In this document: positions 34,228-58,621 of the stretch, piece by piece | Numbering within the stretch: position 1 is the stretch's first letter | Layout of the letters: the number at the start of each line of letters is the position of its first letter | DNA from: Pedobacter cryophilus | GTDB lineage: Bacteria; Bacteroidota; Bacteroidia; Sphingobacteriales; Sphingobacteriaceae | Assembly (NCBI RefSeq): GCF_005116455.1 | Contig: NZ_SWBP01000003.1 | Coordinates: forward strand, 124,012 to 188,011 | Reading direction: 5' to 3' | Length of the DNA: 64,000 bases | Position numbers and translations under genes: made by a program | The notes under the pieces: generated by a model | What the model saw: only the letters and a program-made list of their open reading frames with translations | Database searches by the model: none | Told to the model about the DNA's origin: nothing

Positions 34228-34270
34228 TGACAGTAATCAGTAAGCGGAGCATTCGTTTTTCGCATTTTTG
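34228..34270 (+). promoter_or_regulatory. FNR-like box plus -7 element for the small protein gene at 34,294
   Basis: TGACAGTAATCA (34,228-34,239) differs from TGAT-N4-ATCA at one base. Exactly 23 bases later comes CATTTTTG (34,263-34,270), close to the Bacteroidota TAnnTTTG. The same 23-base spacing at the other sites supports this imperfect one. The ATG is 24 bases downstream. Confidence 0.6.
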
Positions 34271-34293
34271 ATAAAAGATATTTTTTGAATAAG

Positions 34294-34596
34294 ATGAGCT
34301 ATTTAACTCTTAATGATGCTGTATTTGATCTTCGTAAACGAGGTTATAGGTTAAACTTTTATTATTATGAAGATAATATTATTTGTTTCCCTTTAGAGTT
34401 GGTAGTGCCTATTGATAACGTTAATATTGATGAGGTACATACTATCCCAGTATCAGATGAAAATGAAAAAAAAAGTGTGCTTTATGCAATTAGCATTAAA
34501 GAAGGACAACATGGGATACTTTTTGATTGTAGCGGCGAGGTGAACCTACAATCAACAGTTGATTCTGAAGATAATCATCACCAAGAAAATCATTAA
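34294..34596 (+). CDS. Small conserved protein of unknown function, paralog of 36,065-36,388
   Basis: A 100-residue acidic soluble protein, taken from the ATG at 34,294; a TTG three codons earlier is unlikely. It shares with its paralog the opening YxxLNxAxxDLRKRGYRLNFxxxxD, then P-L-x-L near residue 30, then IDEVHTIP/IEETHSFP, and the ending S-x-LYAISIKEGQHGILFD. Similar short proteins occur in Bacteroidota and are sometimes labelled as phosphoribosylpyrophosphate synthetase, a label I see no support for. It has an upstream FNR-like promoter like most genes of this island, so it is probably a stasis or low-oxygen protein. Confidence 0.75.
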   Translation: MSYLTLNDAVFDLRKRGYRLNFYYYEDNIICFPLELVVPIDNVNIDEVHTIPVSDENEKKSVLYAISIKEGQHGILFDCSGEVNLQSTVDSEDNHHQENH

Positions 34597-34632
34597 AACA
34601 TTTTATATTTATTAGCAGCCTAAAATTAGATA

Positions 34633-35469
34633 TTAGGTGAAACTGTTTTCTTTGAGCACTAATAAAGGCTTTACGCCACTTAAGGCTAATTTTTTAGTGG
34701 TACTGCTATAAAATAAATCATGAAATAGCCCATGTTTTTTATGAACGGCTATTAAAACATCTACATTTTTTTCTTTCGCAAAATTCTCGATGTTTTCTGC
34801 AATATGGCTACCACTGGTATAATAATATTCGGGATTAATTTCATCTAATAATTGATGTAATTTTTCTTGTGCCAATATGGTTTCAATATCGGCTCTCTCT
34901 TCTTTATGAGGATCAACGTTTAGCACATAAAATTTACTATGAAAAGCCTTAATAAAAGAGATAATAGTATCGGCAGGAATTTGTTCTATATTTTTAAGTT
35001 CGCAGGCATAAGCCACCAATTGTATGGGGTGATAAACTACTTCAGCCGGCACTACTAATAAAGGAAGTGGAAACCTATAAATAAGTACAGAAGTTTGGCT
35101 TCCGTATAATATTTGAGCTGCATTAGAATGCCCTTTGCATCCCATTACGCATAAATCTATTTCTTCTTCTTTACATAAATCTACCGCATCTAATAATGGA
35201 TTACCGTCTGTTACACTCATCATGGTAATTCCGCTAGTTATAAATGGTGTTAATGAAGTTTCTAAGTCATTAAGTTTAGCTAAACTCTCGGCCCTTAATG
35301 TTTCTAAATCTACCGGATAGGGCAAATAACCTTCATCTGTTGGGCTAAACACATAAGAATGATAAAGTACAATTTTTGCGCTTTCAAAAGTACTGGCCAA
35401 CATTAATGCATACCTGGCGGCATTAAATGAGCGGAATGAAAAATCAGTGAAAACAAAAATATTTTTCAT
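34633..35469 (-). CDS. Tandem universal stress protein (two Usp domains)
   Basis: A 278-residue protein of two Usp domains, about 1-140 and 145-278. MKNIFVFTDFSFRSFNAARYAL is a normal Usp start, so the ATG at 35,469 is chosen over an upstream TTG. MGCKGHSNAAQILYGSQTSVLIYRFPLPLLVVP closes the first domain; the second ends FHDLFYSSTTKKLALSGVKPLLVL. The G-2x-G-9x-G(S/T) ATP motif is only partly kept in domain 1 and replaced in domain 2. Tandem Usp proteins act in survival under low energy or oxygen. A TGAT-N4-ATCA site lies 121 bases upstream, shared with the divergent FixH-like gene, though its minus-strand spacing to a -7 box is not the standard one. Confidence 0.87.
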   Translation of the reverse strand: MKNIFVFTDFSFRSFNAARYALMLASTFESAKIVLYHSYVFSPTDEGYLPYPVDLETLRAESLAKLNDLETSLTPFITSGITMMSVTDGNPLLDAVDLCKEEEIDLCVMGCKGHSNAAQILYGSQTSVLIYRFPLPLLVVPAEVVYHPIQLVAYACELKNIEQIPADTIISFIKAFHSKFYVLNVDPHKEERADIETILAQEKLHQLLDEINPEYYYTSGSHIAENIENFAKEKNVDVLIAVHKKHGLFHDLFYSSTTKKLALSGVKPLLVLKENSFT

Positions 35470-35589
35470 AAATAAATTTTTAATCAAATTTCTTAAATCT
35501 TAAACAAAAATGTGCTGAATAATATCAATTACAAAGTTGATCGTGATTTCTAAAAAACTTTAAAATTCAATCATAATCAATCTATGACG

Positions 35590-35632: not shown

Positions 35633-35692
35633 GTTAATAGAACAAGATTGAAAAAGTGAATAATTAAATCACCTTACTTAAATTTAGAAATC

Positions 35693-35917: not shown

Positions 35918-35997
35918 TTATACTTTTTTTTGACAGTAAATTATGTAATTAATTGATTTTAAGCAGATTATTATCCAACTAAAATCAATAAAATACC

Positions 35998-36040
35998 TGA
36001 TAAAGATCATTTAATTAGACAGTAGGTTTCTACATATTTG
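35998..36040 (+). promoter_or_regulatory. FNR-like box plus -7 element for the small protein gene at 36,065
   Basis: TGATAAAGATCA at 35,998-36,009, 23 bases, then CATATTTG at 36,033-36,040. The ATG at 36,065 lies 24 bases after the -7 box, exactly as for the paralog at 34,294. Confidence 0.75.
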
Positions 36041-36415: not shown

Positions 36416-36452
36416 TTAGGAGAAGACTAATTATAGTTTTCTCCTAATTTTT
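36416..36452 (+). terminator. Intrinsic terminator between convergent genes
   Basis: TTAGGAGAA (36,416-36,424), a 14-base loop, TTCTCCTAA (36,439-36,447) and then five T. It ends the plus-strand small-protein gene 28 bases after its stop. It abuts the ppsA stop codon, and on the minus strand the tail is only AAAATATT-like, so it is mainly one-directional. Confidence 0.75.
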
Positions 36453-38833
36453 CACCTCATTTCATGCTGTAAAGCTAGTTTAGAAACTAAATCTAACCCT
36501 TTCAAAAACATATCAGGGTTAAAAGAAATACTATCTATCCCTTCTTCTACTAAAAATTGTGCAAATTCTACAGAATCTCCAGGTCCTTGGCCACAAATAC
36601 CAACTTTAGAACCGCATTTATGCGCTGTTTGAATTAATAATTTAATCATCTCTTTACTGGCTAAATTATTTTCATCAAATAAAGAAGCCACCAATGCCGA
36701 GTCTCTATCTACACCTAAAATAAGTTGAGTAAGATCATTAGATCCGATAGAAAATCCATCAAATAAACCAGCTAATTCTTCCGCAAGTAAAATATTAGAA
36801 GGAATTTCGGCCATTACATATATCTCTAGCTTGTTTTTTCCTCTTACCAAGCCATAGGTTTTCATTAATTCTATCACTTTTTCACCTTCATCTGGGGTTC
36901 GGCAAAATGGAATCATTAGCTTCACATTATCCAATCCCATATCATCTCGTACTCGTTTAACAGCTTCACATTCTAACTTAAAACCGGGTTTATATAAATC
37001 ATTATAATAACGGGATGCCCCTCTAAAACCAAGCATAGGGTTTTCTTCTTCTGGTTCAAATTCTTTGCCTCCCAATAAATTAGCGTATTCATTAGTTTTA
37101 AAATCACTCATCCTTACAATTACATCTTTAGGATAAAATGCGGCTGCTATAATGGCTATTCCTTCTGCAAGTTTATCAATAAAGTAAGTGCCCTTTTCTG
37201 GATATTGTTGCGTTAAATCTCTAATAACTTTTTTATCCTTTAAATTTTTTAAGGTATTAAAATTAACCAAGGCCATTGGATGTATTTTAACCTGATGACT
37301 AATAATAAACTCCATTCGCATTAAGCCTACCCCATTATTTGGGTAAAATGAGAGGTTAAAAGCTTTTTCAGGGTCGCCAAGAATAAAACATATTTGAGGA
37401 TGATTTGGAAGATGCACATTTTTAAAATCCAGTACTTTTTCCTCCCAAGTTAAAACCCCATCATAAACTAATCCGGTGTTTCCTTCGGCACAGTTTACGG
37501 TAATGGTTTGGCCATCTTTAATTAGCTCAGTTGCATTGGCGGTACCAACTATTGCGGGTACTCCTAATTCTCGGGCAATAATTGATGCATGACTGGTTCG
37601 CCCACCTTTATTGGTAATAATTGCCGAAACTGTTTTTAGAATGGGATCCCAATCTGGGCTGGTTAAATTGGTAACCAATATATCTCCGGGTTCTAAATCA
37701 TCAGACTCTTCTGGAGACTGAATAATTCGGGCTTTTCCCGAAATAATTTTACTGCCAATGGCTTGTCCTTTTAACAAAGGTTCTTTGGTTTCTAAAAGCT
37801 TAAATTCTGTAATCTCTAAAGATTTTTTTTGACTGTGAACAGTTTCTGGTCGGGCTTGTAAAATAAATAATTCGCCACTTAAACCGTCTTTTGCCCACTC
37901 TATATCCATTGGCTTTTTATAATAATCTTCAATAATAAGCGCCCAATTCCCTAATAAGGTGATTTCCTCATCATTTAAAATAAATTGATTTTGGAGTTCA
38001 CTTGGTGTAGTAATGTTATTTGTATTTTGAGCGGTATCATCAGCATAAACCATCATTTGCTGCTTAGAACCTAGTTTTTTTTGAATAATTGGAAATTTCT
38101 TTTTTCTAAGCGATGTTTTAAACAGCAAAAATTCATCAGGGTTAACCGTACCCTGCACCATGTTTTCTCCTAAACCCCAAACGCCTTCAAAATGAATTAC
38201 CCCGGCAAATCCAGAATCTGGATCTAAAGTAAATCCTACACCAGAACAGCCCTTATCAGCCCTTACCATTTCTTGTATACCAACAGATAAAAACACCTTA
38301 GAATGGTCAAAACCTTTATCTTCTCGGTATTTTATGGCTCTATCTGTATATAAAGAGGCAAAGCATTTTTTTACCGCTAATATTAATTTTTCGTTTCCAC
38401 TGATGTTTAAATAAGATTCATGCTGACCGGCAAAACTTGCTTCGGGTAAATCCTCGGCTGTGGCGCTACTTCTTACTGCTACAGCCGGATCATTATTTGC
38501 AAAAACTTCTGAATAAGCAAAAGAAATAGCTTCTATCAAATCATTAGATATTCTAGCATGTAGTATTAATTCTCTGGCTTTCTCTCCTATTTGCTTAAGG
38601 TTAGAAAAGTTTTTTCGATCTAAATCTGCCATCAGGCGGGTATGTACTCCATCAAGCTTATTGTATGCTATAAAATGCTTAAATGCAGAGGATGTAACTG
38701 CAAAACCATTAGGAATGGCAATATTTTGCGATGCCAACTTATTATACATTTCACCTAATGAAGCATTTTTTCCACCTACTTCACTTAAATCTTTAATAGA
38801 AATTTCAGAGAATTTTTTGATATAACTCATCAT
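36452..38833 (-). CDS. ppsA: Phosphoenolpyruvate synthase
   Basis: A 793-residue protein, close to the 792 of E. coli PpsA when started at the ATG at 38,833; the longer frame begins with TTG. The N-terminal nucleotide-binding domain starts SYIKKFSEISIKDLSEVGGKNASLGEMY and has AVRSSATAEDLPEASFAGQ. The swivelling domain carries the phospho-His in GGRTSHASIIARELGVPAIVG near residue 420. The C-terminal PEP domain has GFSIGSNDLTQLILGVDRDS and KVGICGQGPGD with the catalytic Cys. It makes PEP from pyruvate and ATP for gluconeogenesis. It has an FNR-like box 153 bases upstream; PpsA genes also occur in low-oxygen regulons of proteobacteria. Confidence 0.93.
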   Translation of the reverse strand: MMSYIKKFSEISIKDLSEVGGKNASLGEMYNKLASQNIAIPNGFAVTSSAFKHFIAYNKLDGVHTRLMADLDRKNFSNLKQIGEKARELILHARISNDLIEAISFAYSEVFANNDPAVAVRSSATAEDLPEASFAGQHESYLNISGNEKLILAVKKCFASLYTDRAIKYREDKGFDHSKVFLSVGIQEMVRADKGCSGVGFTLDPDSGFAGVIHFEGVWGLGENMVQGTVNPDEFLLFKTSLRKKKFPIIQKKLGSKQQMMVYADDTAQNTNNITTPSELQNQFILNDEEITLLGNWALIIEDYYKKPMDIEWAKDGLSGELFILQARPETVHSQKKSLEITEFKLLETKEPLLKGQAIGSKIISGKARIIQSPEESDDLEPGDILVTNLTSPDWDPILKTVSAIITNKGGRTSHASIIARELGVPAIVGTANATELIKDGQTITVNCAEGNTGLVYDGVLTWEEKVLDFKNVHLPNHPQICFILGDPEKAFNLSFYPNNGVGLMRMEFIISHQVKIHPMALVNFNTLKNLKDKKVIRDLTQQYPEKGTYFIDKLAEGIAIIAAAFYPKDVIVRMSDFKTNEYANLLGGKEFEPEEENPMLGFRGASRYYNDLYKPGFKLECEAVKRVRDDMGLDNVKLMIPFCRTPDEGEKVIELMKTYGLVRGKNKLEIYVMAEIPSNILLAEELAGLFDGFSIGSNDLTQLILGVDRDSALVASLFDENNLASKEMIKLLIQTAHKCGSKVGICGQGPGDSVEFAQFLVEEGIDSISFNPDMFLKGLDLVSKLALQHEMR

Positions 38834-38954
38834 AGAAAGTTTAATTTTCAAAATTTTTAGAATTGTAGAATGATATCTTCTGGTGATTTTTTAAATGTTT
38901 TATAAGGGCTGATGATGAAATTTAAAGCAATGATATCATTAAAACATTCTACTA

Positions 38955-38997
38955 TAAAAGTCTATTTTTAAAGCTTTTATAGTGTTGATGGGCATCA
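38955..38997 (-). promoter_or_regulatory. FNR-like box plus -7 element for ppsA
   Basis: Extended palindrome TTGATGGGCATCAA (core 38,986-38,997), 23 bases, then GACTTTTA on the minus strand (38,962-38,955). It would give an untranslated leader of roughly 115 bases, the longest of the set. Confidence 0.7.
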
Positions 38998-39016
38998 AGC
39001 ACTAAAATGATTCTAA

Positions 39017-39766
39017 TCAAGCTTGTTTGGTAAATCTTTTTTCGAATAACCATTTTGCTGGTCTAAATTTTTTCTCTTCTCTTAATTTAAACTTCTTTAT
39101 ACATTTTTCTTTCACCAGTGCAACAGCATCCTCTAAAGAATCTGTAATGAGGTAAAGTTCCCTGTCTTGTTTTGATATGGTTCCTTCTTTTACCATTTTA
39201 GCCATGTGTTGCACCAATTCTTGATGAAAATCTTTATAAAAAACAATTACCGGAAAATCTTTAATAATATTAGTTTGCATTAAGGTGAGCGCTTCAAAAT
39301 ATTCGTCCATAGTACCAAAACCGCCAGGCATTACCACAAAGGCGTAAGAATATTTTACCAATAATATTTTACGAATAAAAAAGTATTTAATACTCACCCA
39401 TCTATCTAAATATTGGTTTCTATGTTGTTCTAAAGGTAATTTAATGTTACAACCAACAGATCGTCCGCCCACATCTTTTGCTCCCCTGTTGGCGGCTTCC
39501 ATTAAACCAGGGCCACCACCAGTAAGAATAGTAAAACCTAGTTTAGCCATTTCTCCGGCTGCTTCTCTGGTAAATTTATAATATTCGTGGTCTTCCTTAA
39601 ACCTTGCCGATCCAAAAAATGTAATACAAGGCCCAACAAAATGTAAGATTCTAAATCCTCTTACAAATTGAAAAAAGGTAACAACAATAAATTTAAAATC
39701 CCTCCATCTGGATTGTGGACCTGCTAAAAACTTAATTTCACTAGTAGAATGTTGTTGCCTTTTCAT
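39017..39766 (-). CDS. LOG-family (TIGR00730) Rossmann-fold protein
   Basis: A 249-residue protein. ITFFGSARFKEDHEYYKF is the first strand and loop, ILTGGGPGLMEAANRGAKDVGG the nucleotide-binding turn, and VVMPGGFGTMDEYFEALTL the PGGxGTxxE motif that defines the lysine-decarboxylase-like/LOG family. LOG enzymes release a free base from a nucleoside monophosphate by phosphoribohydrolase action; many bacterial members act on purine or pyrimidine nucleotides (YgdH-like). It follows the LD-transpeptidase gene after 4 bases, so they are co-transcribed. The functional link is unclear. Confidence 0.87.
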   Translation of the reverse strand: MKRQQHSTSEIKFLAGPQSRWRDFKFIVVTFFQFVRGFRILHFVGPCITFFGSARFKEDHEYYKFTREAAGEMAKLGFTILTGGGPGLMEAANRGAKDVGGRSVGCNIKLPLEQHRNQYLDRWVSIKYFFIRKILLVKYSYAFVVMPGGFGTMDEYFEALTLMQTNIIKDFPVIVFYKDFHQELVQHMAKMVKEGTISKQDRELYLITDSLEDAVALVKEKCIKKFKLREEKKFRPAKWLFEKRFTKQA

Positions 39767-41276: not shown

Positions 41277-41708
41277 TTATTCAATAGGTATCAAGTTTTT
41301 CTTTGCTTCCTTAATTTCGGCCTTTTTTAAGGTTAAATACAAAAGTCCATTTTCATATTTAGCCTGTACTTTTTCTGAATTTACGTTTTCAGGAAGGGTA
41401 AAAGATCTGTTAAAAGACGAATAAGAAAACTCCTTTCGGGTGTAATTGGTGTCTTCCTCGGCTTTTTCCTCTGATTTTTCAGCACAGATATTCAAAATAC
41501 CATCTTGAACATCAATTTTAAAGTCCTTTTTCTCATAGCCGGGTGCAGCTACTTCTAATTCAAAACTTTGGTCGTTTTCTTTAATATTTACCGCCGGTAA
41601 AGAATCCTTTCTTAAAAGGGATAGGTCAAATAAATTTTCAGTGTTCCAAAAGTCTTCTAAAAGCGACCTAAACGTAGGCATAGTGGATGTTTTCATTAAA
41701 GTGTTCAT
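41277..41708 (-). CDS. Small heat shock protein, Hsp20/alpha-crystallin family
   Basis: A 143-residue chaperone. The alpha-crystallin domain covers about 38-135 with LPAVNIKENDQSFELEVAAPGYEKKDF, the loop EDTNYTRKEFSYSSFNRSFTLPENV and the strand KYENGLLYLTLKKAE. The C-terminal LIPIE supplies the I-x-I oligomerisation motif. It holds unfolding proteins without ATP. Clustering with Usp genes and PpsA is typical of low-oxygen/stasis islands. Upstream lies TGATATTGATCA, but its -7 spacing is one base longer than usual. Confidence 0.9.
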   Translation of the reverse strand: MNTLMKTSTMPTFRSLLEDFWNTENLFDLSLLRKDSLPAVNIKENDQSFELEVAAPGYEKKDFKIDVQDGILNICAEKSEEKAEEDTNYTRKEFSYSSFNRSFTLPENVNSEKVQAKYENGLLYLTLKKAEIKEAKKNLIPIE

Positions 41709-41769
41709 AGTTCTAATATTTTGAATTTTTAATATTTTATTATTGATGTAAAGTTGCTAAGTAAAGCTT

Positions 41770-41813
41770 AAAACCAAGTTGATTGAGGTTGTGTTTATAC
41801 CTGATATTGATCA
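41770..41813 (-). promoter_or_regulatory. FNR-like box upstream of hsp20 (atypical spacing)
   Basis: TGATATTGATCA at 41,802-41,813, 24 rather than 23 bases, then a weak TTGGTTTT on the minus strand. The palindrome is exact, but the -7 element is poorer than at the other sites. The start codon is about 60 bases further. Confidence 0.5.
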
Positions 41814-41834: not shown

Positions 41835-42671
41835 TTATTTATGTGCAATAAATAAAGGAATATCTAATTCTTCCATCAGTAAATCTGCCATACTCGCTTT
41901 AAAATACATAGAAATAGCCCCTCTTTGGTAGGCACCTAAAACAACCAGTGTATTATTGGTAATTTTCTTTAAATATGCGGGAATCTCTTTCTTTTCATCA
42001 CCTTTAAGTACCGTATATATGGCTTTTGGATAATGACAATCAACAAATTCTTTAATTAAATTAGCCTGAGGGATATGTTTTTCTTTTTCAGGATCTAAAA
42101 CGGTGACAACTTCTGTACCTAAATTTTGCATCCAAGGCATCATATAATTAAACATTTTAATGGCAAAAACAGACGCAATGCTACCATCATAAAGCAATAC
42201 CACTTTTTCTATTTTATGATACGTTCTAGGAATAATCATTACCGGGCATTCTACATGCATTAAAAAATCTTTAACAAAACCTGTGGGTGGCTCTTCTTCA
42301 AAATGTGAAAGTGTTTCGTCTGCACTAATTAAAACTATATCAGAGTAAATGCTCTCTTTAATTAATTCATGTATGGCTATATTTTTATCATGATGAATAA
42401 CATAATTAATTTGAGCCTTTTTACACTCATTTTCATAATGATCGGTTGCTTTTTGTCGGGTTTGTTTATCAGCAGTAAGCAAATGTTTCATTTTATCTTT
42501 AGATACACCTTGGCTACCAACCATATCAAATAGCTTATAACTGTGATAGGTAAAATCATCCAAAAAAACTCCAGAAAGTAATGATTTACTTTGTTTAGCC
42601 AGTTCTATTGCATGTTGAAGTGTACCTTCAGAGAATTTTAAACCGTCAAAAGCAGCACTAACTTTTTTCAT
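41835..42671 (-). CDS. Tandem universal stress protein (two Usp domains)
   Basis: A 278-residue protein starting MKKVSAAFDGLKFSEGTLQHAIELA, a normal Usp domain start with the ATP-binding Asp. Domain 1 has VLISADETLSHFEEEPPTGFVKDFLMHVECPVMIIP and domain 2 begins VVLLYDGSIASVFAIKMF and ends DLLMEELDIPLFIAHK. The glycine-rich ATP loop is not complete in either domain. Its start overlaps the stop of the upstream usp gene by 14 bases, so the two are translated together from the FNR-like promoter at 43,600-43,642. Confidence 0.85.
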   Translation of the reverse strand: MKKVSAAFDGLKFSEGTLQHAIELAKQSKSLLSGVFLDDFTYHSYKLFDMVGSQGVSKDKMKHLLTADKQTRQKATDHYENECKKAQINYVIHHDKNIAIHELIKESIYSDIVLISADETLSHFEEEPPTGFVKDFLMHVECPVMIIPRTYHKIEKVVLLYDGSIASVFAIKMFNYMMPWMQNLGTEVVTVLDPEKEKHIPQANLIKEFVDCHYPKAIYTVLKGDEKKEIPAYLKKITNNTLVVLGAYQRGAISMYFKASMADLLMEELDIPLFIAHK

Positions 42672-43581
42672 ATTGGAGCTTTTTCTTAGTTGTTTTTTGT
42701 TTTGTATCTTCTTCTAAACGAAAATCAGACGGAAAAACTAACAAAGGTATTTTATGATAGTCTAACATCTTTTTGGTGGTACTGGTATGAAATAAATCTT
42801 CAAAAAATGGATATTTTTTATGAATAAGGGTAATTAAATCAATATCCTCAACATGAGCATATTTCATAATAGCCTCTGTTACCTCTTCTGATTTCATTTC
42901 ATGAAAAGACAGTTTCTTATATTTCATTTCAGACCAAGCTGTATAAACATCTTTTGGCAGTTTAGTTATTTCATCTTCTTTTTTATGCTTTGGAGAAACA
43001 TGAGTAACAATAATTTCTGATTTAAAAGGATCGGCTAATTCGGCTAAAAAATCTAACGTTTTTAAGTCATTTTGGTCAAATTCTGCCGAGGTAAAAACTA
43101 ACTTTTTAAATCCTGTAAATTGTGCATGTTGCGGAACCAGCATAATTGGGCATTTAGCTTTAGCAATAACTTCTCTGGTATCACTGGTATATATTATATG
43201 ATTTAAAAAACCATCAGTTCTTTTGTCACCCATAACAATCATCCAAATATCTTTTTTATCTAAAAAGTTATGAATGTTATCTCCTAAATCGCCAATTTCA
43301 TTTTCACATTTAATTTGTGGAATGTGCTTTACTTTGGTGTGTGCAAATTTTTCTTTCACTTTTTCTGCCTGAAATTTTAGTTTTTTCATGCTTTCTTTTT
43401 TAAAGCCTGTAAAATCTGAATAATAAGAGGTATAAATTCCGGCAAAAACTGTCCCTTGAGGAACGTAATAGGCATTATAAAAAATAAGATTAGCATTTGC
43501 ATTTGAAGCTAATTGCCATGCAAATTCAGCAGCGTTTTGTGATTTTTCAGAAAAATCTGTTAGTAACAATATCGTTTTCAT
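42658..43581 (-). CDS. Tandem universal stress protein (two Usp domains)
   Basis: A 307-residue protein of two Usp domains. MKTILLLTDFSEKSQNAAEFAW starts domain 1, which ends with GDKRTDGFLNHIIYTSDTREVIAKAKCPIMLVP. Domain 2 ends LFHTSTTKKMLDYHKIPLLVFPSD, similar to the Usp protein at 34,633-35,469. A Lys-rich tail of about 20 residues follows. The next usp gene overlaps by 14 bases. A perfect FNR-like box sits 50 bases before the start codon, and the REC-CRP regulator gene is divergent on the other side of it. Confidence 0.87.
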   Translation of the reverse strand: MKTILLLTDFSEKSQNAAEFAWQLASNANANLIFYNAYYVPQGTVFAGIYTSYYSDFTGFKKESMKKLKFQAEKVKEKFAHTKVKHIPQIKCENEIGDLGDNIHNFLDKKDIWMIVMGDKRTDGFLNHIIYTSDTREVIAKAKCPIMLVPQHAQFTGFKKLVFTSAEFDQNDLKTLDFLAELADPFKSEIIVTHVSPKHKKEDEITKLPKDVYTAWSEMKYKKLSFHEMKSEEVTEAIMKYAHVEDIDLITLIHKKYPFFEDLFHTSTTKKMLDYHKIPLLVFPSDFRLEEDTKQKTTKKKLQYEKS

Positions 43582-43599: not shown

Positions 43600-43642
43600 T
43601 AAAGTTCTATCAGCTTAAGCATTTGTTTATTGATCAAAATCA
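43600..43642 (-). promoter_or_regulatory. FNR-like box plus -7 element for the usp operon
   Basis: Perfect extended palindrome TTGATCAAAATCAA (core 43,631-43,642), 23 bases, then GAACTTTA on the minus strand (43,607-43,600). The ATG of the usp gene lies 18 bases beyond. Confidence 0.78.
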
Positions 43643-43797
43643 ATCATCCTATTGATTCATATTAAACTAAAGGGATATTAAAATTAGGAAATTGCAACAT
43701 TCTTATTCTTTCTATCTATTTACAAAACGATTAATCTTTTAATTGACATATTTCTTTTAAAATGCTATCAATTAATCATTTAAATGGATTTAAAATA

Positions 43798-43832: not shown

Positions 43833-44894
43833 ATGAAAAAAATACTGATTATAGAAGATGATGATTTTTTGAGAGAGAATATTGCCGAAATACTTTCATT
43901 ATCAGATTATACTGCAATAACCGTTGCAGATGGAAAAGCAGGAATTGAAAAAGCGTTAAAAGAAAGTCCGGATTTGATATTATGTGATGTGATGATGCCT
44001 GGCATTGATGGTTATGGAGTTTTACATATTTTAAGCCGCTACCCCGAAACTAAATTTATCCCCTTTTTATTTCTTAGTGGAAAAAAAGATTTGATAGACA
44101 TACGTAAGGGAATGGAGTTAGGTGCCGATGATTATTTAGTAAAACCTTTAAATGAGGTGGATCTTTTAAACGCTGTATCATTAAGATTGAAAAAAGCTGA
44201 AACCAATAAAAGAAGCAATTTTTCTAATAATGCTAAAAGTACCGAGGTTTTAGAACATCTTGTTGGTGCAAGAGATAAAGAGCATAAAACCGAAAACAGA
44301 GAAATAAGAACTTATCTTAAAAAGCATTTACTTTTTTCAGAAGATCAGCGTCCTTCAGTGGTTTATTATGTGGTTTCTGGAAAACTTAAAGAATACCGCC
44401 TGCATGAGGATGGAAAAGAATTAATTACCAACATGTACACCAGCGGAGATTTTATTGGTTACAGAGCAATTATTGAAGAGATAAATTATACAGAAAGTGT
44501 TCAGGTAATTGAAGATGCTGAATTGATATTAATTCCCAGAAATGATTTTATTGAATTGATTAATCATGATATTAATGTAGCCAGAAAATTTATAGAATTG
44601 CTATCGCATAACGTACATGAAAAAGAAGATAAGCTGCTAAATATGGCTTATAATTCGCTAAGAAAAAAAGTGGCATTTGGTATTATAGAAGTAGCAGATA
44701 AATTTAAGAATAAGATTAAGGGAATGTCTGTGATAGAAATGTCGAGAGAAGATTTGGCTCATGTAATTGGCTCGGCACCAGAATCTATGATAAGAACACT
44801 TAAAGAATTTAAAGGCGAAAAACTGATAGACGTACAAGATGGAGGCAAAATTGTTGTTTTAAATGAGGCAAGATTGAGAAATCTACTCTATTAA
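43833..44894 (+). CDS. Hybrid response regulator: receiver domain fused to CRP/FNR-type DNA-binding protein
   Basis: A 353-residue protein. The receiver (1-120) has DD at 9-10, phospho-acceptor Asp52 in LILCDVMMPG, FLFLSGKK and YLVKPL. A cNMP-binding-like beta barrel follows (VVYYVVSGKLKEYRLHEDGKE, SGDFIGYRAI), then a dimer helix and an HTH_Crp domain with MSREDLAHVIGSAPESMIRTLKEF. In the recognition helix PESMIR keeps the Glu and Arg of FNR's VETISR and CRP's RETVGR, the residues that read the GA of a TGA half-site. The only Cys seen is Cys51, so it cannot bind an FNR Fe-S cluster; the input is phosphorylation, a ligand, or both. It is the best local candidate for the TGAT-N4-ATCA sites. Confidence 0.88.
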   Translation: MKKILIIEDDDFLRENIAEILSLSDYTAITVADGKAGIEKALKESPDLILCDVMMPGIDGYGVLHILSRYPETKFIPFLFLSGKKDLIDIRKGMELGADDYLVKPLNEVDLLNAVSLRLKKAETNKRSNFSNNAKSTEVLEHLVGARDKEHKTENREIRTYLKKHLLFSEDQRPSVVYYVVSGKLKEYRLHEDGKELITNMYTSGDFIGYRAIIEEINYTESVQVIEDAELILIPRNDFIELINHDINVARKFIELLSHNVHEKEDKLLNMAYNSLRKKVAFGIIEVADKFKNKIKGMSVIEMSREDLAHVIGSAPESMIRTLKEFKGEKLIDVQDGGKIVVLNEARLRNLLY

Positions 44895-45947: not shown

Positions 45948-46208
45948 TTACGAATTAATTTTATTTGGAAAACGCTGAATCTTATTACTCACTTGTTCTA
46001 AATTATCTTTTAAAACATCTCTAATTTCTTCTAAATTCTCTTTTCCATCGGCTAAACTATTACTAAAAGAATTAAAGAGTCCTTTACCTTTTTTAACAAT
46101 TTTTCTTCTGGTTCTTTTTCCTTTATCAGGAGCAAACAAAGTTCCTAAAGCTGCCCCTGCAGCAAAAAGAATAATAAAACCCAACAATATTTTCCCTGAA
46201 TTTTTCAT
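45948..46208 (-). CDS. YtxH domain-containing small membrane protein
   Basis: An 86-residue protein starting MKNSGKILLGFIILFAAGAALGTLFAPDKG: one transmembrane helix followed by the APDKGKRTRRKI motif of YtxH/DUF883-like stress proteins and an amphipathic C-terminal helix. I choose the ATG at 46,208, not the one at 46,229, because the predicted -7 box is at 46,234-46,241 and transcription would begin at about the upper ATG. The role is unknown; family members are linked to general stress. Confidence 0.8.
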   Translation of the reverse strand: MKNSGKILLGFIILFAAGAALGTLFAPDKGKRTRRKIVKKGKGLFNSFSNSLADGKENLEEIRDVLKDNLEQVSNKIQRFPNKINS

Positions 46209-46233
46209 GGTGATTAAGTTATTTTTCATGTTA

Positions 46234-46276
46234 CAAACATAAAGATTGATGGTTTTTATAGCGCTGATTTACATCA
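46234..46276 (-). promoter_or_regulatory. FNR-like box plus consensus -7 element for the YtxH gene
   Basis: TGATTTACATCA at 46,265-46,276, 23 bases, then a perfect TATGTTTG on the minus strand (46,241-46,234). One of the two best examples of the shared promoter layout. Confidence 0.82.
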
Positions 46277-46367
46277 AGCGTTAATTTGATTTTACTCAAT
46301 TTTGATTTAAAATGGTTTTGATTTTTTAAGCTAAAATGCTTTTTAAAATCATAATCAACCGTCTATT

Positions 46368-46410
46368 TGATCTGCATCAATACCAATATCTTAACTATAT
46401 GATAAGTTTA
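46368..46410 (+). promoter_or_regulatory. FNR-like box plus -7 element for the baeRF-like gene
   Basis: Perfect extended palindrome TTGATCTGCATCAA (core 46,368-46,379), 23 bases, then TAAGTTTA at 46,403-46,410. Back to back with the YtxH promoter, so two such boxes control a divergent pair. Confidence 0.8.
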
Positions 46411-47842: not shown

Positions 47843-48517
47843 TTATTCCTCAAAAACAAATTCAGGAACTTCAATTTCTATTTTACTGATCACACTGATC
47901 ACACCAGGTGCAGCCCAAGCGGCTCTTTCGGCATCTTCTTTTTCCACAAATGATCTTACTTTTCCGGTAAGGGTAACTTTACTGCCCTCTACTTCTACCG
48001 TTACTTTTCCAGCATCTATAGTTGCGCTTCTATGAAAAGCAGCGTTAATTTTTTGCTTAATATCTGTAGATGTAATTTTAGGTTTTACGTTAATTAAATT
48101 AATTACAGACCGTACACCAGATAAGTTTTCAATAGCTGTTTTGGCATTGGTACGTTGGTATTCCCATTCTACCTCTCCTTCTAACTTCACAATACCATCT
48201 TCTACCTTAATTTTAATTTTTTCTTCTTGTACTGCTGTATGCCATTTTAGAGCATTTAATACCGCTTCGGCAATTTCAGTATCTGATTTTTTAAAGCTTG
48301 GAGAAAGACCAACCTGAATTTCTTCGGCCACTGCTTTTACGCCAACTACTCTTTTAGCGGCTTTTTCTGCCGATGCTTTTTTAGAATAATTATCAACCAT
48401 TCCTGATAAGGTTACGATACCGTTTTTAACAGCCACTCCTATTTCCGAAGCATTTAAGAATGGTTCCCATTTAATTTCTTCCATTACATCTCTTTGGATT
48501 TCGATATCAGTTTTCAT
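47843..48517 (-). CDS. Three-domain BON protein (OsmY-like)
   Basis: A 224-residue protein of three BON repeats, each about 70 residues: EIQRDVMEEIKWEP...VVGVKAVAEEIQV, EIAEAVLNALKWHT...LSGVRSVINLINV and DIKQKINAAFHRSA...APGVISVISKIEI. Each has the usual helix, the ...GIVTLSG/KVTLTG strand and the conserved Gly. No signal peptide is seen, unlike OsmY, so a cytoplasmic location is more likely. BON domains bind phospholipid or other surfaces. The gene is in the FNR-like promoter set. Confidence 0.87.
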   Translation of the reverse strand: MKTDIEIQRDVMEEIKWEPFLNASEIGVAVKNGIVTLSGMVDNYSKKASAEKAAKRVVGVKAVAEEIQVGLSPSFKKSDTEIAEAVLNALKWHTAVQEEKIKIKVEDGIVKLEGEVEWEYQRTNAKTAIENLSGVRSVINLINVKPKITSTDIKQKINAAFHRSATIDAGKVTVEVEGSKVTLTGKVRSFVEKEDAERAAWAAPGVISVISKIEIEVPEFVFEE

Positions 48518-48557: not shown

Positions 48558-48600
48558 CAAAGTAACAGTTAATTGAATTTTTGCGAGATGATCAGAATCA
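48558..48600 (-). promoter_or_regulatory. FNR-like box plus -7 element for the BON gene
   Basis: TGATCAGAATCA at 48,589-48,600, 23 bases, then TTACTTTG on the minus strand (48,565-48,558). Only the second base of the TAnnTTTG consensus differs. Confidence 0.78.
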
Positions 48601-48653
48601 AACTGATTGTTGATTGTGATAGGTAATATCGCTGATTCTGTTTCGCGAAATTC

Positions 48654-49178
48654 TTAAACCTGATCAATTTTAATAGGCGCTTTAGCTTTACGATTGATTT
48701 CATACTCGGCCAGTTGAGATAAACGATCGTCAATTTGCTTTTCATTAATTTCGGCCTCGTGAAAAACAACAGCAGCTCTTTCCATATCTAACATGTTGGC
48801 GTAAGCTGTTGCAGTACCGTATAAGCTAATTTTGTAATGATTAATTACTTGAATAAAAGCTAAAATACAAGCATCTTTTACTTCAGCATCTGTACAATAA
48901 GACAGCTTTTCATCAGCATCTTCAATTAAAGCCTGCATTACTGGATTGTTAAGACTTAGAGAACTCATTTGCTCGTCTTCAAAAAATTTCTCCATCTTTT
49001 TAACATGTTGATCTACAAAATCAAGATATTTTTGGAGTACCATTTTTAATTTTACCGAATCGGCTTTCATAAGCCATTCTCCTAAACTGGTTTTTAAACG
49101 TATTTCTGCATTTGTAAACTTAGAGGCATCAAAATCCAATAGATGATGCAGGGTGGCTATTGAAGGCGTATTTTCCAT
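48654..49178 (-). CDS. YciE/YciF-type ferritin-like protein (DUF892)
   Basis: A 174-residue all-helical protein. TLHHLLDFDASKFTNAE, the helix WLMKADSVKLKMVLQKYLDFVDQHVKKMEKFF, DAEVKDACILAFIQVINHYKISLYGTATAYANML and AVVFHEAEINEKQIDDRLSQLA reproduce the DUF892 four-helix layout with Glu, Asp and His positions of a possible di-metal site. Related YciE/YciF proteins respond to stress. A consensus FNR-like promoter lies 54 bases upstream. Confidence 0.82.
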   Translation of the reverse strand: MENTPSIATLHHLLDFDASKFTNAEIRLKTSLGEWLMKADSVKLKMVLQKYLDFVDQHVKKMEKFFEDEQMSSLSLNNPVMQALIEDADEKLSYCTDAEVKDACILAFIQVINHYKISLYGTATAYANMLDMERAAVVFHEAEINEKQIDDRLSQLAEYEINRKAKAPIKIDQV

Positions 49179-49200: not shown

Positions 49201-49243
49201 CAAAAGTATAGGTTAAGCCACAAGTAGAGCCTGATTTGAATCA
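49201..49243 (-). promoter_or_regulatory. FNR-like box plus consensus -7 element for the DUF892 gene
   Basis: TGATTTGAATCA at 49,232-49,243, 23 bases, then a perfect TACTTTTG on the minus strand (49,208-49,201). The start codon is 23 bases downstream of the -7 box. Confidence 0.82.
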
Positions 49244-49313
49244 AACAGCAGAATGATAAGTGTCAATTTTATAAAGTAAATTGATTCATCTAAATCATAA
49301 TAAATTTCATAAG

Positions 49314-50746: not shown

Positions 50747-51487
50747 TTATCTGGCTAAATAACCTCCATCTACCGGGTAATAACTACCGGTTACAAATGA
50801 TGCTTTATCGCTGCCTAACCATAAAATTAATTCGGCAACTTCTTCACTTTTCCCAAAACGCCCAATAGGATGCAATGCTACAATTTGGCTTCTAATCCCA
50901 TTATCTAAAACCTTTAACATGGGCGTATCAATAAATCCAGGGCCAACAGCATTCACCCTAATATTTAATGCCGAATATTCTAAAGCTGCATTTTGAGAAA
51001 GCCCCACTACCCCATGTTTTGCTGCCGCATAGGCTGATGAACCTGCAAAACCAACGGCACCTAAAATAGATGAAATGTTAATTATGCTACCTCTTCCGTT
51101 TTTAAGCATGGCAGGTATTTGATATTTAAGACCGTAAAAAACGCTGTTTAAATTCACATTAATTACATGCTGAAAGTCTTCAATGGTGAGGTCAATGAGT
51201 GGCTCTATTTCGCCAGATATTCCAGCATTATTTACAGCTATATCAAGCTTTCCGTAAGCTTTTACAGCAAAATTAACCAGTTCTTTCATCTCTTCTGGCT
51301 GAGAAACATCGGCTTTAAAAGACGATGCATTTCCACCCAAGTAACGTATGTTTTTGGTAACAGCTTCTACTTCATATTCATTAATATCAGACAATACCAC
51401 ACTTGCTCCCTGCTTTGCAAACAACTCTGCTGTAGCTTTCCCAATTCCAGAAGCAGCTCCAGTTACAATCACAGTTTTATTTTTCAT
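50747..51487 (-). CDS. Short-chain dehydrogenase/reductase
   Basis: A 246-residue classical SDR. VTGAASGIGKATAELFA binds NAD(P), VNNAGISGE is the NNAG motif, and INISSILGAVGFAGSSAYAAAKHGV gives the catalytic Ser and Tyr-x3-Lys; VNAVGPGFIDTPML and FVTGSYYPVDGGYLAR close the fold. It resembles glucose-1-dehydrogenase and cyclopentanol-dehydrogenase type SDRs. The Asp in VVLSDINEYE suggests NAD preference. It lies 41 bases upstream of cdsA and has a TGATATTCATCA palindrome 90 bases before its start. Substrate unknown. Confidence 0.85.
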   Translation of the reverse strand: MKNKTVIVTGAASGIGKATAELFAKQGASVVLSDINEYEVEAVTKNIRYLGGNASSFKADVSQPEEMKELVNFAVKAYGKLDIAVNNAGISGEIEPLIDLTIEDFQHVINVNLNSVFYGLKYQIPAMLKNGRGSIINISSILGAVGFAGSSAYAAAKHGVVGLSQNAALEYSALNIRVNAVGPGFIDTPMLKVLDNGIRSQIVALHPIGRFGKSEEVAELILWLGSDKASFVTGSYYPVDGGYLAR

Positions 51488-51543
51488 TTTGGTAAATTTT
51501 ATCTTTCAAATTATATTAAAAGACAAATTTATGTTGACACCCT

Positions 51544-51588
51544 TAAAGGTTACTTAACCAAAAATAGCTTAGCAATTGATATTCATCA
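51544..51588 (-). promoter_or_regulatory. FNR-like palindrome upstream of the SDR gene (non-standard spacing)
   Basis: TGATATTCATCA at 51,577-51,588. The nearest -7-like element on the minus strand is AACCTTTA after 25, not 23, bases. The site sits between the DinB gene's stop and the SDR start, where a regulatory element is expected, but it is a weaker example. Confidence 0.4.
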
Positions 51589-55160: not shown

Positions 55161-55565
55161 TCAATTGCTTTTAGTTAAATTATTATGCTTATTTTCTACC
55201 ACAAGCTCATCAACTATAGCATATAATTCTCTCTTAATTTTTTTGTCATCCGCAAATAATTTCTCTATATGATTTAATTGCTCTTGAGTGCTTTGCTGAG
55301 ATTTTTTTTGAGCATAATCTTGAGTATGAGCTATTATTTTTTTTAACTCGTTGATAATTTCATCAAGTTTAGAAATTCTGGAATTAATGTCTTTAATTTT
55401 TTTTGAGGCATCATCTAAAGGAGAAATAAGCATTACTTTTTGTAATAATCTGTTTATAAAACGAGTTTCGTTTTCAACAAATATTAAATCGTAATTCCAT
55501 TTCTGATTTTGCTCACCAAAATCAGGTAATATTTGGGTAAATGGTTTAATTAAGGTAGTATTCAT
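55161..55565 (-). CDS. Unknown coiled-coil protein under a double FNR-like site
   Basis: A 134-residue soluble protein that I do not recognise. The N-terminal third is NYDLIFVENETRFINRLLQKVML; from residue 50 to 125 it is almost wholly charged helix with heptad character (DINSRISKLDEIINELKKIIAH, HIEKLFADDKKIKREL), so it is probably a two-helix coiled coil. No signal peptide. It has its own promoter with two TGAT-N4-ATCA palindromes 52 and 74 bases upstream, which places it in the stress regulon rather than with the ABC operon downstream. Confidence 0.7.
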   Translation of the reverse strand: MNTTLIKPFTQILPDFGEQNQKWNYDLIFVENETRFINRLLQKVMLISPLDDASKKIKDINSRISKLDEIINELKKIIAHTQDYAQKKSQQSTQEQLNHIEKLFADDKKIKRELYAIVDELVVENKHNNLTKSN

Positions 55566-55585: not shown

Positions 55586-55650
55586 TAAAGATCAGCAGCT
55601 AAAAACAAGAATCAGCTGATGATTATCAAATGGATTTATGATAATCATCA
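55586..55650 (-). promoter_or_regulatory. Double FNR-like site plus -7 element
   Basis: Two boxes, TGATGATTATCA (55,617-55,628) and TGATAATCATCA (55,639-55,650), are perfect reverse complements, 22 bases centre to centre. From the nearer box 23 bases lead to GATCTTTA on the minus strand (55,593-55,586). The whole can also fold as a 12-pair hairpin, but it has no T run and so is a poor terminator for the tlpA-like gene that ends at 55,660. Confidence 0.7.
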
Positions 55651-55659
55651 ACAGAGGCT

Positions 55660-56286: not shown

Positions 56287-57165
56287 CTAGTTTGTACGAT
56301 TTTTTAAGAACGGATAACTCAATTGCGTACCTAAATCTTTAGGAAATTGTTCATCGTTTTTAAAGCCTAGCTCTAGGTCTCGGCCTTCTGCTGGGATATA
56401 ATTGGTCTTAAATATATAATCCCAAATACTTAATGTTAACCCATAATTTACTCCGTAAGAGCCATCAGGTAATGTTTTAGCATGATGCCAGATATGCATT
56501 TTTGGGTTGTTAAAAATGTATTTTAAAGGTCCGTAAGAAATATTAAGGTTGGAGTGGTTAAAATGGCCAATTGCAGTGGTAAAAATATGCACAATAAAAA
56601 AATCTTGTAGTCCAAAACCAATCATAGCTAATGGAATATATTGAGCCGTTTTATAAAAAACAGATTCCATCCAATGAAAACGTAAATGTGCAGCAAAACC
56701 CATTTCCTTTATAGAATGATGGACTTTATGAAATTCCCACATCCATGGAATGCGGTGCAAAGTGCGGTGAACGTTCCATTGAATAAAATCTGCAAAGACA
56801 AATAAAAGCAACAGTTGCGCCCAATTTGGCCATAATTGTATTTGAAAAGCGATTAAGTTTTTTACGCCAAATAATCCTATAAAATCATTAAAAGCAGTAA
56901 CAGCTACATTTGAAATGGCATTGTAAGCAATTAATGAAAATAAAAAGTAGTTAAAAAACATATAGAAACCATCCATCCAAAAATCCTGACGAAAAACAGC
57001 TTGCTTTTTTCGCCAGGGGATGATGATTTCAAGCATCCAAACCAATAATGAAAGACCAATTAGCCAATAAAAATAGTTACTCCATGATGGATACAATATT
57101 TCATTAACCAAGTAATTCCAATAACCGGTATAAGATTCCTGAATGATTTTTAGATATTTATCCAT
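56287..57165 (-). CDS. Fatty acid hydroxylase/sterol desaturase family membrane protein
   Basis: A 292-residue protein with about five membrane helices and the eight-His di-iron set: HRTLH, HKVHHS, a His in HFNHSN and HIWHH, at about residues 131-232. FADFIQWNVHRTLHRIPWMWEFHKVHHS is the family core. The group oxidises lipids using O2 (C-5 desaturases, hydroxylases, alkylglycerol monooxygenase). Its place between TlpA and a persulfide dioxygenase is unexplained; a lipid role in adapting to sulfide or low oxygen is speculation. Confidence 0.82.
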   Translation of the reverse strand: MDKYLKIIQESYTGYWNYLVNEILYPSWSNYFYWLIGLSLLVWMLEIIIPWRKKQAVFRQDFWMDGFYMFFNYFLFSLIAYNAISNVAVTAFNDFIGLFGVKNLIAFQIQLWPNWAQLLLLFVFADFIQWNVHRTLHRIPWMWEFHKVHHSIKEMGFAAHLRFHWMESVFYKTAQYIPLAMIGFGLQDFFIVHIFTTAIGHFNHSNLNISYGPLKYIFNNPKMHIWHHAKTLPDGSYGVNYGLTLSIWDYIFKTNYIPAEGRDLELGFKNDEQFPKDLGTQLSYPFLKNRTN

Positions 57166-57203
57166 TTAATAAACTCTTTTTTGAGGCTACAGTATCTACT
57201 TTT

Positions 57204-58553
57204 TTAGTGCTTATAAAATTCGTTAATCGCTTCACCTAAATCATAAACTTTAGTTTTATCTCCTATAGCTTCATTTACAATACTGCTTCCGGCTGCACTT
57301 CTATAACCTCCGGCACAATGAATAATTACTGGTTTATCAGTTGCTATCTCTCCCGCCCTTTCTCTTAACTCGCCTAAAGGAATGTTTTTGGCGTTCTCAA
57401 ATATGGGTTGAGTTTTAAACTCGGTAGTATTTCTGATATCAATAATGCTGTAATCATCTTGATGGTTTTTAAAATGATTAACATCAACTAAATCAATTTG
57501 TTCATTTCCGGCTACGGCAATAAAAGCGGCCTCAATAAAAGATTCATAGCCAATACTTGCAGATCTTTCTATCAATTCCTCTAATTGCTCTTGATTTGAA
57601 GCCGATAAATAAAACTTTTCTCCCGGAGAAATGATACTGCCTAACCAAGTTTCAAATTTGTTTCCGGCTTGTATATTATAAGAATTTGGTAAATGCCCCT
57701 GCTTATATATTTCTTGAGACCGGGCATCAATAATCACATATTCTGGATTTAAATCTGCTACTGCTGGTTGATTTAAGATTTTTACTTTTTCTATAGCCGA
57801 TTTAAATTCTGGAGCTCCTTTTCTATTCAAATCAACATCATAACCAAAATATTTAGGAATAAATGGTTGATCTGTAGTTAATTCGGTTACAAAATTATCA
57901 ATACTCATATCTTGTAAAGACCAATTGGTGATTTTTTCGGCACCAATAGTACTGCTGTTTGCACTACTTAAAGCTTTACCACAAAGTGTACCCGCACCAT
58001 GAGCCGGATAAACCAAAACTTCATGATCTAAAGTCATTAATTTATCTCTTAAAGAGTGATACATTTGCTGCGCCAACTCTTCTCTTTTTGCCTGTAAATT
58101 ACCAGCTCCTTCACGTAAATCTGGACGGCCACAATCACCAATAAATAAAGTATCTCCTGTAAAAACAGCATGATCTTTACCTTCAAAATTTAATACAATT
58201 GAAATGCTATCTGGCGAATGCCCGGGGGTGTGCAAACTTTTAAATTTAATATCGCCAATATTTAACTCTGCGCCTTCATCAAAAGCTTCAAAAGGATAAC
58301 TTACTCCTGTTAAGCTATGCGCATAAATTTTAGCACCTGTTTTTTGATGTACCTCTAAATGGCTACTTACAAAATCTGCATGAGGATGCGTTTCTATTAC
58401 GGCTACAATTTGTGCATTGTTTTCTTTTGCAAAATCAAAATATTGCTGTGGATTTCTTGATGGATCTACCAAAACAATTTCCTTTTTTGATTCATTTAAA
58501 ACGGCATAACTGTAATGTGCCAAATATTTATCTTCAAACTGTTGAATCTTCAT
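57204..58553 (-). CDS. CstB-like persulfide dioxygenase with two rhodanese domains
   Basis: A 449-residue three-domain protein. The metallo-beta-lactamase domain (1-250) has THPHAD with His56, His58 and Asp60, followed by Phe rather than His as usual in the bacterial MBL-rhodanese fusions, then TPGHSPDSIS and FTGDTLFIGDCGRPDLR. The first rhodanese (about 275-355) lacks its Cys, reading YLSASNQEQ; the second has the active-site HCAGGYRSA near residue 415. This matches CstB, which oxidises glutathione or coenzyme A persulfide to sulfite and forms thiosulfate. I start at the ATG at 58,553 because the longer GTG frame would begin inside the upstream regulatory palindrome. Confidence 0.85.
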   Translation of the reverse strand: MKIQQFEDKYLAHYSYAVLNESKKEIVLVDPSRNPQQYFDFAKENNAQIVAVIETHPHADFVSSHLEVHQKTGAKIYAHSLTGVSYPFEAFDEGAELNIGDIKFKSLHTPGHSPDSISIVLNFEGKDHAVFTGDTLFIGDCGRPDLREGAGNLQAKREELAQQMYHSLRDKLMTLDHEVLVYPAHGAGTLCGKALSSANSSTIGAEKITNWSLQDMSIDNFVTELTTDQPFIPKYFGYDVDLNRKGAPEFKSAIEKVKILNQPAVADLNPEYVIIDARSQEIYKQGHLPNSYNIQAGNKFETWLGSIISPGEKFYLSASNQEQLEELIERSASIGYESFIEAAFIAVAGNEQIDLVDVNHFKNHQDDYSIIDIRNTTEFKTQPIFENAKNIPLGELRERAGEIATDKPVIIHCAGGYRSAAGSSIVNEAIGDKTKVYDLGEAINEFYKH

Positions 58554-58578
58554 AATCACTTTTAATTTATTTGATATG

Positions 58579-58621
58579 CAAATTTCATTATAAAACGAAG
58601 CCAACTGTGTGATGTTTATCA
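58579..58621 (-). promoter_or_regulatory. FNR/CRP-like box plus -7 element for the CstB-like gene
   Basis: TGATGTTTATCA at 58,610-58,621, within TGTGATGTTTATCACT, which also fits the CRP pattern TGTGA-N6-TCAC. After 23 bases comes GAAATTTG on the minus strand (58,586-58,579). The start codon is 25 bases further. Confidence 0.75.

Follow-up and report, generated by a model that had tools for sequence, protein, structure and literature searches.

A tandem CRP/FNR-type promoter before stress genes of Pedobacter cryophilus, and a receiver-CRP fusion as its candidate activator

The window, as we call the whole stretch of DNA analysed here, comprises 64 kb of the genome of Pedobacter cryophilus (C10:124012-188011; 32% GC; 1.6% of a genome of 3,991,797 bases in 16 contigs). 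About fifteen of its genes, many of them stress genes, lie behind one promoter type, and the same island encodes a PAS histidine kinase and a protein that joins a response-regulator receiver to a CRP-type regulator (receiver-CRP). An initial annotation had described the promoter as a single FNR-like palindrome, TGAT-N4-ATCA, followed after 23 bases by a -7-like box. Spacing and box were right, but a second box 22 bp upstream of the palindrome had been missed, and the unit, given as a weight matrix consensus, is TGAYN4RTCA-N10-TGAYN4RTCA-N23-TAnnTTTG. The features are given below, with mismatches counted against ATCAN10TGATN4ATCAN24ANNTTTR and scores in bits from the weight matrix, which was trained partly on window sites, so that these scores are somewhat circular; its top score on the reversed window was 15.1 bits.

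32524..34176, + strand: PAS-PAS-HisKA-HATPase kinase (P0001; Pfam), candidate partner of the regulator, with Asp in place of the haem-PAS His
34206..34270, + strand: tandem promoter of the gene for a 100-amino-acid product at 34294; 1 mismatch, 24.7 bits
35485..35549, - strand: tandem promoter of usp 34633-35487; 1 mismatch, 18.5 bits
35568..35632, + strand: tandem promoter of the gene for a 74-amino-acid product at 35693; 0 mismatches
35976..36040, + strand: tandem promoter of the gene at 36065; 0 mismatches
38955..39019, - strand: tandem promoter of ppsA (36452-38851); 0 mismatches
41749..41813, - strand: tandem promoter of hsp20 (41277-41708); 3 mismatches, 24.3 bits, distal box strong, proximal box degenerate
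43600..43664, - strand: tandem promoter of usp 42658-43581; 0 mismatches
43833..44894, + strand: receiver-CRP fusion of 353 amino acids (receiver, cNMP-binding domain, Crp-type helix-turn-helix; Pfam), proposed activator
46234..46298, - strand: tandem promoter of the YtxH gene (45948-46229); 0 mismatches
46346..46410, + strand: tandem promoter of the gene for a 154-amino-acid product at 46448; 0 mismatches
48558..48622, - strand: tandem promoter of the BON gene (47843-48517); 1 mismatch, within the -7 box
49201..49265, - strand: tandem promoter of the DUF892 gene (48654-49178); 0 mismatches, 32.9 bits, the top score in the window
51524..51588, - strand: tandem promoter of the SDR gene (50747-51487); 22.3 bits, distal box good, proximal box poor
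55586..55650, - strand: tandem promoter of the gene for a 134-amino-acid coiled-coil product (55161-55565); 0 mismatches, two full palindromes
58579..58643, - strand: tandem promoter of the metallo-beta-lactamase/rhodanese gene (57204-58553 or 57204-58622; Pfam domains); 2 mismatches
61664..61728, - strand: weak candidate tandem promoter of the TsdA-like cytochrome c gene (60452-61519); 17.6 bits, 145 bp before the start of the open reading frame

The 12 window sites that deviate at no more than two positions are all intergenic and lie 5-122 bp 5' of a gene on the same strand, as called with our own open reading frame caller, in agreement with the earlier statement that the sites precede genes. 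The eleven promoters listed in the initial annotation are all found at their positions with a -7-like box exactly 23 bases past the palindrome, and two of them carry an off-consensus base (TGAC at 34,228, and the BON box TTACTTTG, in which position 2 is not A). One site had been overlooked, that before usp 34633-35487, and the three described as looser (hsp20, SDR and TsdA-like genes) represent tandems with one degenerate box. The 74-amino-acid product has a weak Pfam match to FixH (E 0.0033, below the cut-off), and a Pfam search with the 154-amino-acid product, previously called baeRF-like, returned no family match.

The second element is visible within the eleven promoters themselves, since an ATCA ends 10 bases before the palindrome in ten of them and an A stands at -20 in all eleven; it is a second palindrome 22 bp away whose left half is often worn. 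The excess of the palindrome predicted earlier is also confirmed: the window has 19 copies of TGATN4ATCA, against a mean of 1.52 and a maximum of 5 in 100 dinucleotide shuffles, none of which held as many. TGATN4ATCA-N23-nAnnTTTR is found at 19 places in the whole genome, 9 of them in the window (reversed pattern: 2), while the tandem pattern with up to two mismatches is found at 42 (13 with none, 11 with one and 18 with two) and its reverse at 4. The window contains 11 of the 24 places with at most one mismatch.

The same grammar was recovered in other genomes from 80 named loci, the best 80 of 589 confirmed ones, which were picked by the regulator protein alone and hold 640 usable TGAYN4RTCA palindromes. 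Upstream of these, ATCA occurs at a gap of 10 bases in 74 cases and at any other gap in 0-11; downstream, a -7 box lies at a gap of 23 in 75 cases and of 45 in 100, with 0-13 at other gaps. As 45 equals 23 + 22, the better palindrome in the latter cases is the distal one. Tandem sites with up to two mismatches number 113 in these loci and none in their reversed sequence. A first pass of the matrix at 12 bits or more, over 104 sequences that include the training sites, gave 352 places against 2 reversed, and later passes gave 429 against 6 and 491 against 9. At 14 bits the final matrix finds a site in 75 of the 80 named loci and 319 sites in total: 190 at most 200 bp before an open reading frame, 18 scored as coding and 111 neither, many of which would be the opposite-strand reading of a near-symmetrical tandem. 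A single-palindrome promoter was therefore rejected, because the two boxes are equally constant in this wider set, and the tandem design, which recurs in several orders, is not peculiar to the window locus. The window is AT-rich, which might favour such palindromes by chance, but the shuffles, the reversed controls and the spacing peaks led us to reject a chance or compositional artefact, whose probability we regard as negligible.

FNR and Anr recognise the half-site TGAT and act from the class II position, and the identification of the window boxes as CRP/FNR-type sites holds, as does that of TAnnTTTG as the -7 element of Bacteroidota. In a flavobacterium the -7 box lies at -12 to -5, according to the part of PMC9723704 considered here, which places the centres of the two boxes at about -41.5 and -63.5 and supports the class II spacing proposed earlier. 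Being 22 bp apart, both boxes lie on the same face of the DNA.

Sites are kept at related genes. In the named loci a site precedes 28 of 51 homologs of site-bearing window genes but 155 of 1103 other genes, and in 19 regions of relatives, chosen partly for their sites, the figures are 23 of 35 and 57 of 303. Both this conservation and the scan of genome and relatives, with counts far above those of the reversed controls, bear out what the initial annotation had anticipated. Among individual genes, hsp20 homologs carry a site in 4/4 cases in the relatives and 8/12 in the named loci; for ppsA these numbers are 4/5 and 0/2.

Outside the window, where genes were named by Pfam, tandem sites of the own genome precede a dehydrogenase/radical-SAM pair, a second fusion gene, BON and OmpA genes, a second hsp20, ftsH, and genes for a cation ATPase, an AI-2E-type permease and an AHSA1 protein, among others. 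Further sites lie at a DLH/phosphoribosyltransferase pair opposite a gene pair that ends in an erythromycin-esterase gene, and at a glycosyl-hydrolase-130 gene opposite a PAS/GAF gene. Another site, at C9:96634, overlaps coding sequence and could be fortuitous. The matrix alone adds a fused COX1-FixO gene (25.6 bits, 31 bp before) and a FixI-type ATPase gene (20.2 bits, 5 bp before). In four genomes (G000, which is the own genome, G006, G077 and G092) the FixL-linked regulator is followed by D-isomer 2-hydroxyacid dehydrogenase/radical-SAM (hemN-like) genes with a site 18-24 bp in front of them, and FixO/COX1, GlutR and radical-SAM genes are found downstream of sites in other genomes. We compared Pfam families, of which the first 25 were listed, between 140 of 166 genes downstream of sites and 140 of 828 genes without sites. 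Usp is found in 18 versus 3 genes and PAS kinases (HisKA) in 17 versus 9, while E1-E2 ATPase with ATPase-cat_bd (8), HSP20 (8), GlutR (7), hemerythrin (6), ScdA_N (5) and radical SAM (4) each occur at most three times in the control. Receiver-CRP genes are present in 5 versus 11.

The candidate activator of these promoters, the product of 43833-44894, matches Response_reg (2e-24), cNMP_binding (1.1e-18) and HTH_Crp_2 (2.2e-12). In all 31 aligned rows, the window protein included, the phosphoacceptor Asp52, Lys104 and Glu317/Arg321 of the helix-turn-helix are invariant, and the features of a response regulator (acidic pocket, Asp phosphoacceptor, Thr/Ser and Lys) are present; the L021 paralog has Asn in the acidic pair of its receiver. 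Of the Glu, Arg and Ser that bind the cAMP phosphate in CRP, the Glu and the Arg look replaced, as judged by eye. Foldseek finds the C-terminal half similar to CRP, FNR and FixK2, with TM-scores of 0.31-0.43 by query length among the matches listed. An AlphaFold model (mean predicted local distance difference test score 79.5, residues 127-154 mostly below 50) is good within domains only, its domain arrangement being unusable because the predicted template modelling score is 0.40.

Three receiver-CRP fusions are encoded in the own genome, at 43833-44894 of the window, C10:119106 and C9:742313. The second, 4 kb before the window, has a tandem site with one mismatch in front of its gene, and both it and the window copy accompany accessory genes. 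In a midpoint-rooted tree these two form one well-supported clade and the FixL-linked copies fall into another. In the C9 copy, the gene that follows the kinase holds the receiver and the CRP/FNR part in one frame.

TGAT-N4-ATCA is the FNR/Anr half-site pair, which might point to a classical [4Fe-4S] FNR, and the initial annotation had called the palindrome FNR-like. The CRP/FNR-type site stands, but an iron-sulphur cluster is improbable: a receiver-CRP fusion lies inside the locus, so that control is probably by phosphorylation, and no cysteine motif of the FNR type (CxxCx3-8C) is present in seven of the eight cNMP-domain proteins of the genome, the eighth, L026 (CBS-type by eye), lying outside the scan. 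We therefore rejected a classical FNR, which we consider highly improbable; unlike in FNR/Anr, a receiver takes the place of the iron-sulphur cysteines that we did not find in these seven proteins.

Most of the fusion genes travel with kinases. The PAS domain of the C9 kinase matches FixL of Bradyrhizobium (BjFixL) at 4.7e-32 with the haem His and Arg in register, and the fusion next to it adjoins D-isomer 2-hydroxyacid dehydrogenase, radical-SAM (hemN-like), COX1-FixO and FixG genes, a cbb3-oxidase cluster. The loci examined yielded 138 distinct fusion genes, and for 113 of them the gene directly 5' encodes a kinase resembling this FixL-like one (BLASTP E <=1e-10). By pairwise alignment the haem His is found in 95 of these 113 kinases and the Arg as well in 53; the count of 95 is rough, as two rest on alignments scoring below 60 and the G077 and G094 kinases were misscored as His-less from partial loci. 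In many haem-PAS kinases 5' of a receiver-CRP gene (L207-L285) Met or Leu stands in for the FixL Arg, which recalls DosP-type haem PAS domains.

Parts of this arrangement resemble known systems. The mycobacterial DosR regulon includes Usp, alpha-crystallin, pfkB, cation ATPase and phosphoribosyltransferase/erythromycin-esterase type genes, and counterparts of such gene types are present, by Pfam, in the own genome; DosR itself is a NarL-type regulator with another box, unlike the system of the window. In rhizobia, FixL-FixJ-FixK combines a haem-PAS kinase, a two-component step and a CRP/FNR protein acting at FNR-type boxes near -41, with the cbb3 oxidase and hemN as targets; FixJ, a receiver with a NarL-type helix-turn-helix, controls a separate fixK gene. 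The system described here shares the BjFixL-like kinase with its His and Arg, a putative two-component step, a CRP/FNR protein, the FNR-type box near -41 and sites before COX1-FixO (a loose one) and the dehydrogenase/radical-SAM (hemN-like) pair. It differs in that receiver and CRP/FNR part are one protein without a separate FixK step, and in the two boxes 22 bp apart. Acetoacetyl-CoA reductase, one of the enzymes of the third system, is an SDR. This is the lxa locus of Burkholderia, which encodes Usps, a heat-shock protein, a BON protein, a cytochrome c, acetoacetyl-CoA reductase and phosphofructokinase, and whose proteins rise together with a CRP-family protein coded outside the locus, M0049 (PMC6127331, in the part considered). 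The similarity in gene content upholds the resemblance to lxa noted earlier; lxa belongs to another phylum, and neither a receiver-CRP nor a tandem-box promoter was met in that part of the paper (PMC6127331).

We consider it likely that the window belongs to a Bacteroidota low-oxygen regulon in which FixJ and FixK are united in one protein that drives a stress island of the DosR/lxa kind. A PAS histidine kinase, with a FixL-type haem pocket in most relatives, would phosphorylate the receiver of receiver-CRP as oxygen falls; the phosphorylated protein would dimerise and two dimers occupy the two boxes side by side, the proximal one contacting RNA polymerase in the class II position. The tasks of FixJ and FixK, two steps in rhizobia, would thus fall to one protein. 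Computation brought out the promoter grammar, which is conserved and placed before genes, as well as the fusion protein and the kinases encoded beside it, and the path from kinase through receiver-CRP to tandem promoter is the simplest account of these; binding, phosphorylation, the oxygen signal, cooperativity and the choice among the three paralogs at the window sites are what we infer from them. Low oxygen as the signal is suggested by the haem-PAS kinases, by targets in haem synthesis and of hemerythrin, FixI and dehydrogenase type, and by the likeness to lxa. The earlier idea of a low-oxygen/stasis regulon is thus supported in its stress and low-oxygen gene set and in the lxa likeness, with low oxygen itself still an inference. 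More tentatively, and with rather less confidence than an even chance would warrant, a haem-PAS kinase and a one-piece FixJ/FixK binding as two abutting dimers to an obligatory -41.5/-63.5 tandem might form a cooperative, near all-or-none class II promoter; duplicates would, in separate lineages, have come to control the stasis island and an exopolysaccharide locus, and stand-alone CRPs on the same tandem would have arisen where the receiver was lost.

Several observations weigh against the low-oxygen regulon with a one-piece FixJ/FixK. The recognition helix of FNR reads ExxSR, and the FixL-linked copies have ETVSR or ETISR, whereas the window copy has ESMIR, with Ile in place of Ser. The promoter of the window regulator is itself poor: the tandem at 43600..43664 faces the regulator gene on the + strand with a poor box (GAAATTGC), so that autoregulation would have only this to rely on. 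The site before the own COX1-FixO gene is loose, with 5 mismatches to the strict pattern, and genes downstream of sites include COX1 (cbb3 oxidase) about as often as control genes do (5 versus 4). Finally, the window kinase (32524-34176) lacks the haem-PAS His in both PAS domains and, by alignment, has Asp where the haem-PAS relatives have His.

This last point favours a reading in which the fusion regulates the island in response to something other than oxygen, such as redox state, starvation or another ligand sensed by the window kinase, and oxygen acts only through the FixL-linked copy. However, the 45% identical homolog of this kinase in G077 (L129:8488-10113), directly 5' of a receiver-CRP gene, keeps the His, as does the G094 kinase beside its own receiver-CRP, both in full length, which suggests that the window kinase was of the haem type and that its pocket has been lost. 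Moreover, the window sites have the design of those at the dehydrogenase/hemN-like genes beside FixL, and the content of the island matches the low-oxygen lxa locus as far as the considered part of PMC6127331 describes it. We regard a non-oxygen signal as rather unlikely.

Points for and against the regulon as proposed, with the fusion as its activator, come from its distribution, surveyed at one mismatch or less in 121 genomes of the family and 198 of the phylum. Within the family, a tandem site is present in 77 of 121 genomes (the reversed pattern gave 6 hits in total), and sites are more numerous where the fusion is present: 242 in 84 fusion-bearing genomes (63 with a site; G000 left out) and 19 in 36 without it (13 with a site; p 4.5e-7, or 1e-4 against the 17 larger fusion-less genomes). 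Across the phylum there are 97 sites in 31 genomes with a fusion versus 52 in 166 without (p 1.4e-12; 9 reversed hits). Within the class alone, however, significance is not reached (p 0.058; 25 sites in 17 fusion-less genomes), 21 of the 85 family genomes with a fusion have no site at this threshold, and exact tandem sites occur together with stand-alone CRPs in fusion-less genomes (G010, G033, G060, G070, G023 and G265). In G265, where no receiver-CRP was found, a site with one mismatch (C3:215536-215592) lies 65 bases before a stand-alone CRP match starting at C3:215657. A stand-alone CRP/FNR might accordingly read the tandem boxes, the receiver-CRP fusions being a derived or parallel input, and five cNMP-domain proteins without a receiver are encoded in the own genome. 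We find this alternative improbable, as site number tracks the fusion in family and phylum, if not within the class, sites cluster round the fusion genes in several relatives, and the stand-alone CRP nearest to the window (C10:111791) lies among nitrate-assimilation-like genes, as judged by eye. Since the re-examined site-bearing genomes without a fusion have stand-alone CRPs, the tandem seems to belong to a lineage of CRPs whose most frequent representatives in this survey are receiver fusions.

The initial annotation knew of no such regulon in this phylum, and our search agrees: neither the receiver-CRP name nor a Bacteroidota FixL/receiver-CRP regulon was found in the open-licence literature, subscription papers lying outside the search. 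The considered part of PMC8510549 covers CRP/FNR in an anammox reactor without the word "receiver", and that of PMC9083452 mentions fixL in a section on Ignavibacteria and Phycisphaerae. In the open-licence papers searched, little is said about the response of Bacteroidota to low oxygen, and a promoter grammar with near-zero background together with a named regulator-kinase pair allows candidate targets to be listed in any genome of the phylum. The system would also be a case of the two-step FixJ-FixK relay as a single polypeptide, and of a DosR/lxa-type stress island in a third phylum.

Some additional features of the regulators and sites were noted. Transcription in both directions could start from the near-symmetrical tandem at 43,600-43,695 of the window, which separates usp from the receiver-CRP gene, but the box on the regulator side is poor. 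The second receiver-CRP gene (C10:118811-120900, L028:14812-16884) has orthologs with 65-66% identity in L122 (G103) and L128 (G092). In G000, G103 and G092 it adjoins a helix-turn-helix gene, which carries a tandem site in all three, and a cluster, of sugar-epimerase/polysaccharide type as judged by eye, whose genes are homologs of those at 0.2-10 kb of the window (224-10500); a link of this regulator to exopolysaccharide is possible.

Locus L132 (G014:C43:79000-98999) encodes, next to usp, hsp20, SLOG and YkuD genes, several kinases of the FixL-like kind together with receivers that consist of a single domain of about 120 amino acids. Several genes of this island have tandem sites, and only the FixL-linked type of fusion was found in G014. 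As seen by eye, the right half-site is ATCA in the window island, while GTCA or CTCA is frequent around the FixL-linked cluster. The site just 3' of the FixL-linked receiver-CRP gene (G000:C9:743365-743421) has the odd right half CTCA for ATCA, which is kept in its counterparts in G006, G009, G022, G031, G042, G066, G086, G089, G092 and G116, across many genera, as if a weaker proximal box had been selected.

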